A stretch of 14,125 bases of DNA from an uncultured Bacillota bacterium (GTDB lineage Bacteria; Bacillota; Sulfobacillia; UBA995; UBA9673). A program made the translations under genes and the position numbers. The notes beneath the pieces were generated by a model, which searched no databases, was not told the DNA's origin, and worked only from the letters and a program-made list of their open reading frames with translations. The stretch covers positions 1-14,125 of the forward strand of contig CALMHV010000325.1 in assembly GCA_937863905.1 (NCBI GenBank), given 5' to 3'. Positions 6,584 through 11,397 of the stretch are shown in pieces (position 1 is the first letter of the stretch; the number at the start of each line of letters is the position of its first letter).

Positions 6584-6593
6584 TTGTGCACAA
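6584..6593. repeat. 10-bp palindrome TTGTGCACAA between MATE and the next gene
   Basis: This is a perfect palindrome with mixed base composition, in a short AT-richer patch (6584-6602) within the 109-bp gap. It could be a transcription-factor half-site pair controlling the downstream gene. No clear promoter hexamers flank it. Length alone does not exclude chance. Confidence 0.25.
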
Positions 6594-6670
6594 GTATTTA
6601 CACAGGGGCGAGCCGCCGCTCTCCACCCCCACCGCTCCCAGGCGACCCGACCCCAGGGGAGGCGCAGGCC

Positions 6671-7573
6671 TTGAAACGTGTGGTGAGCATCAGCTTGGGC
6701 TCGTCGTCCCGCGACAAGCGGGTCGAGGCGGAGTTTCTGGGCGAGAAGTTCATCATCGAGCGCATCGGGACCGACGGCAGCGTCGAGAAAGCCAAGGAGA
6801 TGCTGCACGACTTGGACGGCAAGGTCGCCTGCTTCGGCATGGGTGGTATCGACTTCTACGTCCGGTCCGGCAAGAGGAAGTGGATGCTGAAGGACGCCAT
6901 GCGGATGGCGTCCGTCCCCAAGATCACTCCCATCGTCGACGGGGGTGGGGTCAAGGAAACCCTGGAAAGACAGGTCATCGCCGACCTGGAGCCGGTCTAC
7001 GGCATCCCGGTGCGGGGGAAGAAGGTCGTCGTCGTCTCCGGGGTTGCCCGGTTCGCCCACGCCGAGGCCTTCTTCGCGCAGGGGGCCAAGGTCATGCTGG
7101 GCGACCTCATCTTCATCCTCGAGGTGCCCATCAAGCTCTGGTCGCTCCGGGCCCTGGACATCTTCGCCCGCCTCATCGCCCCTATCGCCGCCCAACTTCC
7201 CATCTCCGTGCTCTATCCGACCGGCGAGAGCCAGAAGAAGTCCAAACCGAAGTTCCGGGACGTCTATGAGTGGGCGGACATCGTGGCCGGTGACTACCAC
7301 TTCATCCACCGCTTCATGCCGGAGCGCCTGGACGGCAAGGTCATCGTCACCAACACGGTCACCGACGCGGACGTGGCTGAACTCAAGGCCAAAGGCGTCT
7401 CCTACCTCGTCACCACCACGCCCGAGATGGAGGGTCGCTCGTTCGCCACGAACGTCATCGAGGCCCTGCTCGTGGCTATGTCCGGCAAGCGGCCCGAAGA
7501 ACTCACCGAAAAGGACTATTTCGACCTGATTAAGAAAGCGAAAATCAAGCCTAGGGTGGAGAAACTGAACTAG
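6671..7573 (+). CDS. Quinate 5-dehydrogenase-family protein (function uncertain)
   Basis: The 300-residue product resembles proteins annotated as quinate 5-dehydrogenase in Firmicutes. It has an N-terminal MKRVVSISLGSS strand, then VEAEFLGEKFIIERIGTDG, then ACFGMGGIDFY (53-63), and a central GKKVVVVSGVARFAHAEAF segment (117-134). The middle segment is the most Rossmann-like part, yet it lacks a GxGxxG or the GAGGA loop of AroE/YdiB-type dehydrogenases, so the enzymatic label should be treated with caution. The central strands around 141-160 are very hydrophobic. TTG 6671 is chosen because AGGGGAGG (6655-6662) lies 8 nt upstream and homology begins exactly there. It is 109 bp after the MATE gene and closed by a strong terminator. 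No shikimate-pathway gene is adjacent. Confidence 0.75.
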   Translation: MKRVVSISLGSSSRDKRVEAEFLGEKFIIERIGTDGSVEKAKEMLHDLDGKVACFGMGGIDFYVRSGKRKWMLKDAMRMASVPKITPIVDGGGVKETLERQVIADLEPVYGIPVRGKKVVVVSGVARFAHAEAFFAQGAKVMLGDLIFILEVPIKLWSLRALDIFARLIAPIAAQLPISVLYPTGESQKKSKPKFRDVYEWADIVAGDYHFIHRFMPERLDGKVIVTNTVTDADVAELKAKGVSYLVTTTPEMEGRSFATNVIEALLVAMSGKRPEELTEKDYFDLIKKAKIKPRVEKLN

Positions 7574-8790: not shown

Positions 8791-9426
8791 ATGCTCGTGA
8801 GCCACGACAGGGTGCCCCCCGGCCAGACGGTGACCGACCAGTTCCCCGTCCTGCACTACGGCCCGGTCCTGCACATAGACCGGGAGAGTTGGCGCTTCCG
8901 GCTCCACGGGCGCGTGGCCAAGGAGAAGGACCTCGCCTGGGACGACTTCCGGGCCCTCCCCCGGACGAAGCTCGAATGCGACATCCACTGCGTGACCTAC
9001 TGGTCCAAACTCGGGACCCGCTGGGAGGGCGTGGCGGGGAGCGTCGTGGCCAAGCTGGCCCGCCCGCTCGGCGACGCGCGGTTCGCCATTGTCCAAGGCT
9101 ACGGCGGGTTCGAGACGAACCTGCCGCTGGCCGACCTCACCGCGGAAGGCGTCCTCTTCGCCGACACCTTCGACGGACAGGACATCTCGGCCGAGCACGG
9201 CGGGCCGGTCCGGCTGGTCGTCCCCCATCTCTACTTCTGGAAGAGCGCCAAGTGGGTGAGCGGCGTGGAGTTCACCGCCACGGAACGCCCGGGCTTCTGG
9301 GAGAAGGCCGGGTACCACATGCACGGCGACCCGTGGAAGGAAGAGAGATACCGGGACCAGACGCCGCCGCCTGACCGCCCGCCCTTGCCAGGAGGCCCCG
9401 GCGCGACGGAGAATGGAGATGGTTAA
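8791..9426 (+). CDS. Cytosolic sulfite-oxidase-like molybdopterin oxidoreductase (YuiH-type)
   Basis: The 211-residue protein is a single molybdopterin-binding domain of the sulfite oxidase/YedY superfamily, most like Bacillus Yui[19 protein letters not shown] opens the domain. [19 protein letters not shown] contains the molybdenum-ligand cysteine (Cys67). [14 protein letters not shown] and [20 protein letters not shown] match the rest of the fold. There is no Tat or Sec signal and no dimerisation or heme domain, so it is predicted cytosolic; the physiological substrate is unknown. The start is ATG 8791, just after an in-frame GTG at 8788, with only a weak SD. GTG 8797 is also possible. Only 13 bp separate it from kbl, which suggests co-transcription. 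Confidence 0.88.
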
Positions 9427-9439
9427 GGGGGAAGACACA

Positions 9440-10626
<1,187 letters not shown>

Positions 10627-10630
<4 letters not shown>

Positions 10631-11397
10631 GCGATCACTGGAACTGCCCCACGAACATCGGGGAGATCGAGAACCCCGACGGCCTCGGCGTCTTCTCCGA
10701 CCCGGGTTGCCAGGACGTCTTCTGGGTCTACATCAAGGTCCAGGCCGGGCGCATCGCCGACATCCGCTGCAAGGTTCTCGGCTGCCACTCCGCGGTCGCC
10801 TGCGGCAGCGCCCTGGCCGAACTGACCAAGGGCAAGACCGTCGACGAGGCCCTGCGGATCACGAACGAGGATGTCCTCCGGGCTCTGGGCGGGACCCCCG
10901 ACCCGGCCGACCCCCGCCCGAACCTCGGCGCCGACGCCCTCCACCGAGCGGTCTTCGACTACCTCGCCCGGACCGTCCCCTCGGCCGGCTGGACCTTCTG
11001 GTCGCAGGCCGTCGGCGAGGTCACGCGCGTGGCTGAGGTGAGCGAGGGCGTTCCGCCGGCTTTCCCCCGGCTGTCCGAGATCACCGTGTTCCCAAGGTTC
11101 GCGCCGGCCCTGGCGAAGATCGAGGAAGCCACCCATCTCTGGATCTTGTGGTGGATGCATGGACTGCCGGCGGAGGCCCGGGACACGCTCGAAGCGCACC
11201 CGCGCGGGGACGAGAACCTGCCGGTCAAGGGTGTCTTCGCCCTCCGCAGCCCGGCCCGCCCGAACCCCATCGGGCTGCGTCTCGTCCGGCTGGTCGAGCG
11301 GCAGGAACACCGCCTTCTCGTGGACGGCCTGGACGCCCGGCCGGGATCGCCCATCCTCGACATCAAGCCCTGGACCGAGGGCGACGCGCCGCGCTAG
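10627..11397 (+). CDS. Fusion: IscU/NifU-like Fe-S scaffold domain + TrmO (TsaA) tRNA methyltransferase domain
   Basis: The 256-residue protein has two recognisable halves in one uninterrupted frame. Residues 1-115 match the IscU/NifU N-terminal scaffold: [26 protein letters not shown] (Cys28, Asp30), [29 protein letters not shown] (Cys53), and an [13 protein letters not shown] helix. The third scaffold cysteine, normally in HCS(I/N)LA, is Arg97 ([10 protein letters not shown]), and CGD reads CQD. Residues about 128-251 match TrmO, which N6-methylates t6A37 in tRNA-Thr(GGU) using S-adenosylmethionine: [44 protein letters not shown]. The TTG start at 10627 overlaps the kbl stop in TTGA, implying coupled translation; the SD is weak. 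The start removes a few residues present in typical IscU. Cluster binding and methylation are both inferred. Confidence 0.85.

Follow-up and report, generated by a model that had tools for sequence, protein, structure and literature searches.

A NifU-type scaffold domain fused to a TrmO-type methyltransferase domain, with scaffold-site residues lost in one uncultured Bacillota genome

A single gene of an uncultured Bacillota bacterium was found to join a NifU-type iron-sulfur scaffold domain to a TrmO-type methyltransferase domain. The gene lies within the window, i.e., the whole stretch of 14,125 nucleotides that was analyzed. The fusion, its recurrence in related genera and the loss of scaffold-site residues in the window copy were observed directly. 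They are best accommodated, with a probability of about one half, by a TrmO-type methyltransferase that carries a pseudo-scaffold no longer assembling clusters in the window, the NifU domain being probably cluster or metal binding in the relatives.

Gene structure, recurrence and neighborhood

The features that define the gene and its surroundings are as follows.

10627..11397, + strand: fused NifU_N-TrmO_N protein, 256 amino acids, TTG start; recurs at L026:3636-4430 and L024:4977-5825
10633..10974, + strand: NifU_N (IscU-type scaffold) domain, residues 3-116, site degenerate in the window genome; PF01592 at E 2.1e-25, with NifU/IscU chains as PDB relatives
11074..11376, + strand: TrmO_N (UPF0066) domain, residues 150-250; PF01980, the sole TrmO_N match in the window's assembly
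9413..10630, + strand: upstream BioF/Kbl-family PLP acyltransferase, its stop overlapping the start of the fusion; 80% identical neighbor in both fused relatives

The frame, its coordinates and both domains are as the earlier note described them, and the Pfam matches were far above their cut-offs. The NifU_N match at residues 3-116 (2.1e-25) scored 89.7 bits against a cut-off of 22, which disposes of the note's own reservation that residues 1-115 might have no such match, and the TrmO_N match at residues 150-250 (5.7e-26) scored 91.5 bits against 26.8. With the NCBIfam models, the window protein scored 100.4 bits for tRNA_TsaA (TIGR00104), above the cut-off of 93.25, and 101.4 bits for NifU_clost (TIGR03419), below the cut-off of 187.9. 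The scores of the two fused relatives (151.1 and 142.7) and of one standalone protein (172.0) were likewise below 187.9. Among solved structures, the first half matched NifU/IscU chains by sequence, and the second half matched four TrmO-type chains, with AF_0241 and RPA0152 foremost. The structure predicted from a three-row alignment had a mean pLDDT of 52, with blocks of the NifU half at 53-90 and residues 118-256 below 50; the prediction for the TrmO half is unreliable. By sequence, that half matches 2nv4 and 3okx. No common start codon precedes the TTG at 10627 in the frame, and this TTG shares bases with the stop codon of the gene upstream. A short N-terminal stretch that includes a Tyr is present in both fused relatives and absent from the window protein, which ends six residues past the TrmO_N match.

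A first survey of 61 genomes found the fusion in two other genera of the family (G002 and G003), 64 and 67% identical to the window protein, so that three of the four family genomes carry it (the window's own being G000). The remaining one, G001 (81% complete), gave one ordinary NifU, no TrmO_N and no fusion. Among the matches listed, the fusion was present in 3 of 154 genomes of the class, and the window's own was the only one in 398 genomes drawn from the phylum, a draw that did not include G002 and G003. Up to 16 candidates per genome were scored in the class survey and up to 6 in the phylum survey, from sorted match lists; a fusion would therefore rank at the top. A scan of genome contigs with exact peptide patterns, which reaches close relatives only, returned one further fusion (L024) and one NifU. 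L024 comes from an NCBI record labelled Symbiobacterium sp. isolate Tomsk_70_12_70_12 and represents one and the same contig as G002:C73, its gene recurring without a single difference in L027; the fused relatives consequently number two, not three. Viral contigs gave 67 pattern matches, no relative among them. The fusion probably arose once, in an ancestor of at least three genera of this family.

The BioF/Kbl-family gene precedes the fusion in all three genomes, overlapping it in the window and separated from it by 2 bases in G003 and by 111 in G002. The downstream DUF188 gene, on the opposite strand in the window, has a 77% identical counterpart at the same place in G002; the G003 contig stops just past the fusion. 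No NifU or TrmO was found beside the kbl-like genes of the sister family at L099-L101 and L103, of which the downstream side is visible in L099 and L101 only, L100 and L103 meeting a contig end. A small molybdopterin-binding oxidoreductase gene (PF00174; 8788-9426) overlaps the start of the kbl-like frame in the window, and the oxidoreductase gene, kbl and the fusion may for this reason form one transcription unit there. In G002 and G003 a different gene, on the other strand, takes the place of the oxidoreductase. Further upstream, a 329-residue frame at 6584-7573 had no Pfam match at 0.01 and no NCBIfam match at 1e-5, and is 79% identical over 300 residues to L026:363-1265, which lies upstream of the G003 fusion.

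The draft state of the genomes (1.94 Mb in 452 contigs and 93% complete for the window's assembly, about 180 contigs for G003, a metagenome-assembled record for G002) could be taken to favor an assembly or frameshift artefact, and the earlier note had itself raised a sequencing error across two separate genes. This origin was rejected, its probability being practically nil, since the fusion is present in two further genera at 64-67% identity behind the same kbl-like gene. The protein is a real fusion.

Scaffold half: site residues, rates and origin

The scaffold half was compared within a set of 37 distinct NifU domain sequences (3 fused, the window's included, and 34 standalone), taken from 80 phmmer matches at E <= 1e-6; these loci are the best matches to the fusion rather than a random sample, and distant SufU-type relatives are under-represented among them. 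The residues of most concern are listed below.

10708..10716, + strand: Cys28-Gln29-Asp30; CGD in 34/34 standalone sequences and in both fused relatives
10783..10785, + strand: Cys53, second canonical scaffold Cys, kept; C in 34/34 standalone rows
10801..10803, + strand: Cys59, common to the three fused proteins; 3/3 fused, 0/34 standalone
10912..10920, + strand: Pro96-Arg97-Pro98, replacing the scaffold-site His-Cys-Ser; HCS in 34/34 standalone rows and in both fused relatives

Seven positions were invariant in the 34 standalone sequences: 28 (C), 29 (G), 30 (D), 53 (C), 96 (H), 97 (C) and 98 (S). The window deviates at 29, 96, 97 and 98, whereas the fused relatives deviate at none of the seven and present an unbroken canonical site, with CGD, GC, HCSNL and the N-terminal Tyr. 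This Tyr occurs in 35 of the 37 rows, both fused relatives included, and is missing from the window and from one standalone sequence (L016). The cysteine pattern reported from the sequence alone, i.e., Cys28 and Cys53 retained, Arg97 as the third position, CQD at 28-30 and additional cysteines at 7, 48 and 59, was present in full. Cys7 and Cys48 are found in the window only (0/36 other rows). Cys59 is followed by Gly60 in all three fusions; the standalone sequences have Thr (31), Ser (2) or Val (1) at position 59 and mostly Ser at 60. At the 51 positions conserved in at least 90% of the standalone sequences, the window is changed at 18 and unchanged at 33. The same positions are changed at 7 and 4 in the fused relatives and at 0-11 in the standalone sequences, each left out in turn.

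Residues 3-116 align over nearly the whole domain with NifU/IscU scaffolds (PF01592; TIGR03419), the best solved relative being 4eb5 chain C, NifU-1. The window copy differs from these scaffolds by the absence of Gly29, His96, Cys97, Ser98 and the N-terminal Tyr, by Cys59-Gly60 and by its fusion to TrmO_N. In PMC11021402, the iron ligands of free human ISCU2 are given as Cys69, Asp71, Cys95 and His137, and the persulfide is accepted directly by Cys138. Judged by the order and spacing of the motifs, these five residues correspond to Cys28, Asp30, Cys53, Pro96 and Arg97 of the window, so that three of five remain. As Cys69 and His137 are described there as dispensable for sulfur transfer, it is the loss of Cys97 that matters, and the loss of the His alone would be of little meaning. 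In PMC8617193, enzymatic assembly of clusters is shown to require the N-terminal Tyr. With both the persulfide-acceptor Cys and this Tyr missing, cluster assembly by the known chemistry appears unlikely for the window copy; judging from their residues, it is plausible for the copies of both relatives.

The earlier proposal that the first half is altered and no longer a general scaffold is therefore sustained in part. A general scaffold role is unlikely in the window's genome, but the alteration is specific to the window, and an altered Cys pattern was rejected as a defining trait of the architecture because the fused relatives carry the whole canonical site. With that site intact, the domain of the two relatives probably still binds iron or a cluster, and would serve either to deliver it or to tune the methyltransferase joined to the domain. 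The window copy retains neither the Cys that accepts sulfur, nor the His beside it, nor the Gly of CGD, nor the N-terminal Tyr, and cluster assembly has most likely been lost as well. The NifU half would there be retained as a folded module with a positioning, dimerizing or regulatory function for the methyltransferase; a residual metal site may persist, formed by Cys28, Asp30, Cys53 and possibly Cys59.

A faster change of the window's scaffold half was partly shown. Identity in the NifU half was 65.8% (window-G003), 57.9% (window-G002) and 78.1% (G003-G002), and the three pairs gave 69.4, 70.2 and 71.8% in the TrmO half. Private changes in the NifU and TrmO halves numbered 25 and 14 for the window, 2 and 12 for G003, and 11 and 11 for G002. 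The asymmetry of the window, which rests on three sequences, gave Fisher p values of 0.021 against both relatives pooled and 0.0018 against G003. Against G002 alone (25:11 vs 14:11), p was 0.42 and not significant, and part of the contrast is thus due to the very slow NifU half of G003. The end branches of the trees were 1.4 (window), 0 (G003) and 0.35 (G002) for the NifU half, the window row being flagged by the tree program as long and of odd composition, and 0.42, 0.26 and 0.18, respectively, for the TrmO half. Pairwise dN/dS by NG86, which is crude at such distances (dS 0.57-1.14), was about 0.39 (0.229/0.591) for window-G003, 0.53 for window-G002 and 0.21 for G003-G002 in the NifU half, and about 0.30, 0.21 and 0.36 for the same pairs in the TrmO half. 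The value of about 0.39 together with the open frame suggests that the window's NifU half is under constraint. The pseudo-scaffold reading rests mainly on the site residues, the rate argument being secondary.

The three fused NifU domains formed one clade (support 100/99). With six standalone sequences of a GDPxCGD type, they were separated (100/100) from 28 housekeeping-type sequences, a group that takes in the ordinary NifU of each of the four family genomes. The six (L009, L017, L020, L081-L083), a NifU subtype with GDPxCGD and GCPAAIA, have the GDP, GCP-A and SNLGA motifs in common with the fused domains; unlike the fusions, they stand alone, and no TrmO was found at the loci examined. An Mrp/MinD-like gene adjoins L009, L081, L082 and L083 and lies within 3 kb of L017, these being the five loci examined; the ATPases were named by eye from translated starts. 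The housekeeping-type genes L073, L074 and L076-L078 lie between cysteine-desulfurase-like and MnmA-like genes, also named by eye, and phmmer detected no TrmO in the loci around the standalone NifU genes L072-L079 and L096-L098. Since the fused clade groups with the mostly Mrp-linked subtype and apart from the housekeeping sequences, the scaffold that entered the fusion was probably an Mrp-linked NifU and not a recently copied housekeeping one. The N-terminal domain would accordingly derive from an iron-sulfur scaffold of a subtype whose closest standalone relatives mostly adjoin Mrp/MinD-like ATPase genes.

Methyltransferase half

The 22 matches in the TrmO comparison reduced to 21 genes, since two of them belonged to a single frame, and came from 20 of the 154 class genomes. 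Three residues of the window align with the AdoMet site of TrmO.

11245..11247, + strand: Arg207, aligned with the AdoMet-carboxylate Arg via the motif RSPxRPNPIG; R in 19/21 and H in 2/21 class TrmO_N genes (role from PMC4132733)
11332..11334, + strand: Asp236, aligned with the AdoMet amino-group Asp via its spacing to the Arg and Lys; 21/21
11365..11367, + strand: Lys247, aligned with the AdoMet-carboxylate Lys; 21/21

By this resemblance, the gene is predicted to encode a methyltransferase that uses AdoMet and belongs to the TrmO_N type (class VIII, beta-barrel). According to PMC4132733, AdoMet is contacted by a Gln, an Arg, an Asp and a Lys, and mutants abolish or strongly reduce m6t6A formation in E. 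coli, the Gln mutation sharply lowering activity. That Gln is absent from the loop in all three fusions, and in view of its reported cost in E. coli, methyl transfer by the fusion is not assured. The Gln is also missing, by eye, from 14 of the 18 unfused class genes (L104-L121). It was seen only in L104, L105, L106 and L120, which form one clade (support 100/98).

PMC4132733 also states that the E. coli enzyme requires the Asp and Arg of a C-terminal DPRxxY motif, and that archaeal proteins lacking the C-terminal domain might have another target. TrmO_C was matched in none of the 154 class genomes, although the model is narrow: among 14 controls, 7 of which have TrmO_N, it matched E. coli alone. 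The second half had been identified in the earlier note as the enzyme that methylates t6A37 of tRNA-Thr. As the protein ends before the C-terminal domain and its AdoMet-site Gln is missing, m6t6A synthesis on tRNA-Thr is not supported, and t6A37 methyltransferase was not retained as the assigned function; that assignment is annotation by resemblance. RNA as the methyl acceptor is plausible.

With TrmO/TsaA/YaeB (UPF0066, PF01980; TIGR00104; solved relative 2nv4, AF_0241), the fusion has in common the match to the barrel core and the Arg, Asp and Lys of the AdoMet site. It differs in having no C-terminal domain and no AdoMet-site Gln, and in the NifU-type domain placed in front. With the short TrmO_N proteins (the AF_0241 type and the 18 other class genes), it has in common the absence of TrmO_C, seen throughout the class, and, with 14 of those 18 genes by eye, the absence of the Gln. 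Fusion to NifU distinguishes it from these: 3 of the 21 class TrmO_N genes are fused, and a search for NifU found none at the other 18 loci. Two standalone Gln-less TrmO-like genes (L033:2083-3044 and L035:1177-2118) overlap or abut a gene that was named by eye as nucleoside-deaminase-like, a neighbor that may hint at a substrate other than the t6A of tRNA-Thr.

Alternative explanations and implications

The same residues could be read as a redox or iron sensor that turns the methyltransferase on or off through a rebuilt site of Cys28, Cys53 and Cys59, joined in the window by Cys7 and Cys48. In its favor, Cys59 is kept in 3/3 fusions and absent from 34/34 standalone sequences, the joining of the domains suggests coupling, and the window has its two extra cysteines while His96 and Cys97 are gone. 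However, Cys7 and Cys48 occur in a single genome, the site of the relatives is ordinary and leaves nothing but Cys59 as a common rebuilt element, and a placement of Cys59 facing the site is hypothetical. A sensor is therefore considered unlikely. The window's NifU half might instead be a neutral, decaying remnant on a working methyltransferase. It has lost site residues and accumulated more private changes, its N-terminal stretch is gone where the gene overlaps the upstream neighbor, and the assembly encodes a separate NifU with a full site, the only other one (G000:C74). The intact frame, the dN/dS of about 0.39 and the 33 of 51 strongly conserved positions kept all argue against decay, which is rated as rather improbable.

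Supply of clusters by the NifU half to a partner acting at the same tRNA position, e.g., a methylthiotransferase of the MiaB/MtaB type, would couple cluster supply to methylation of A37. It is consistent with the full scaffold set of the fused relatives and with the Mrp/MinD-like genes (named by eye) that mostly adjoin closely related standalone NifU genes. All four family genomes also match the MtaB model TIGR01579 at E <= 0.001, two of them (G001 and G003) above its cut-off. The window's genome, however, has no match above that cut-off, and sub-cut-off matches are unspecific because all 14 controls match in the same search. Moreover, the Cys that accepts sulfur is gone from the window copy, the protein lacks a C-terminal TrmO domain, and inspection of stretches around the fusion revealed no adjacent MiaB or MtaB gene. 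Delivery to such a partner is considered improbable. The preferred explanation remains the methyltransferase with a pseudo-scaffold in the window and a probably metal- or cluster-binding domain in its relatives.

Both domains are known. In the literature searched, which covers few subscription journals, no paper with both TrmO and NifU and no pairing of NifU with UPF0066, YaeB or TIGR00104 was found; within that coverage, the architecture and the degeneration of the scaffold in one lineage appear undescribed. A bolder proposal, which we put forward as speculative and unlikely, is a new two-domain enzyme class whose built-in scaffold couples iron-sulfur status to the methylation of RNA or another target. 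In one lineage, the scaffold would be on its way to a regulatory domain that relies on the fusion-specific Cys59 and assembles no clusters. If this coupling were true, it would constitute a direct physical link from iron-sulfur supply to a methyl modification, and would give a handle on the methylation targets of short TrmO-like proteins that lack the C-terminal domain. The intact scaffold halves of G002 and G003 and the degenerate one of the window form a natural experiment on what the scaffold half contributes.
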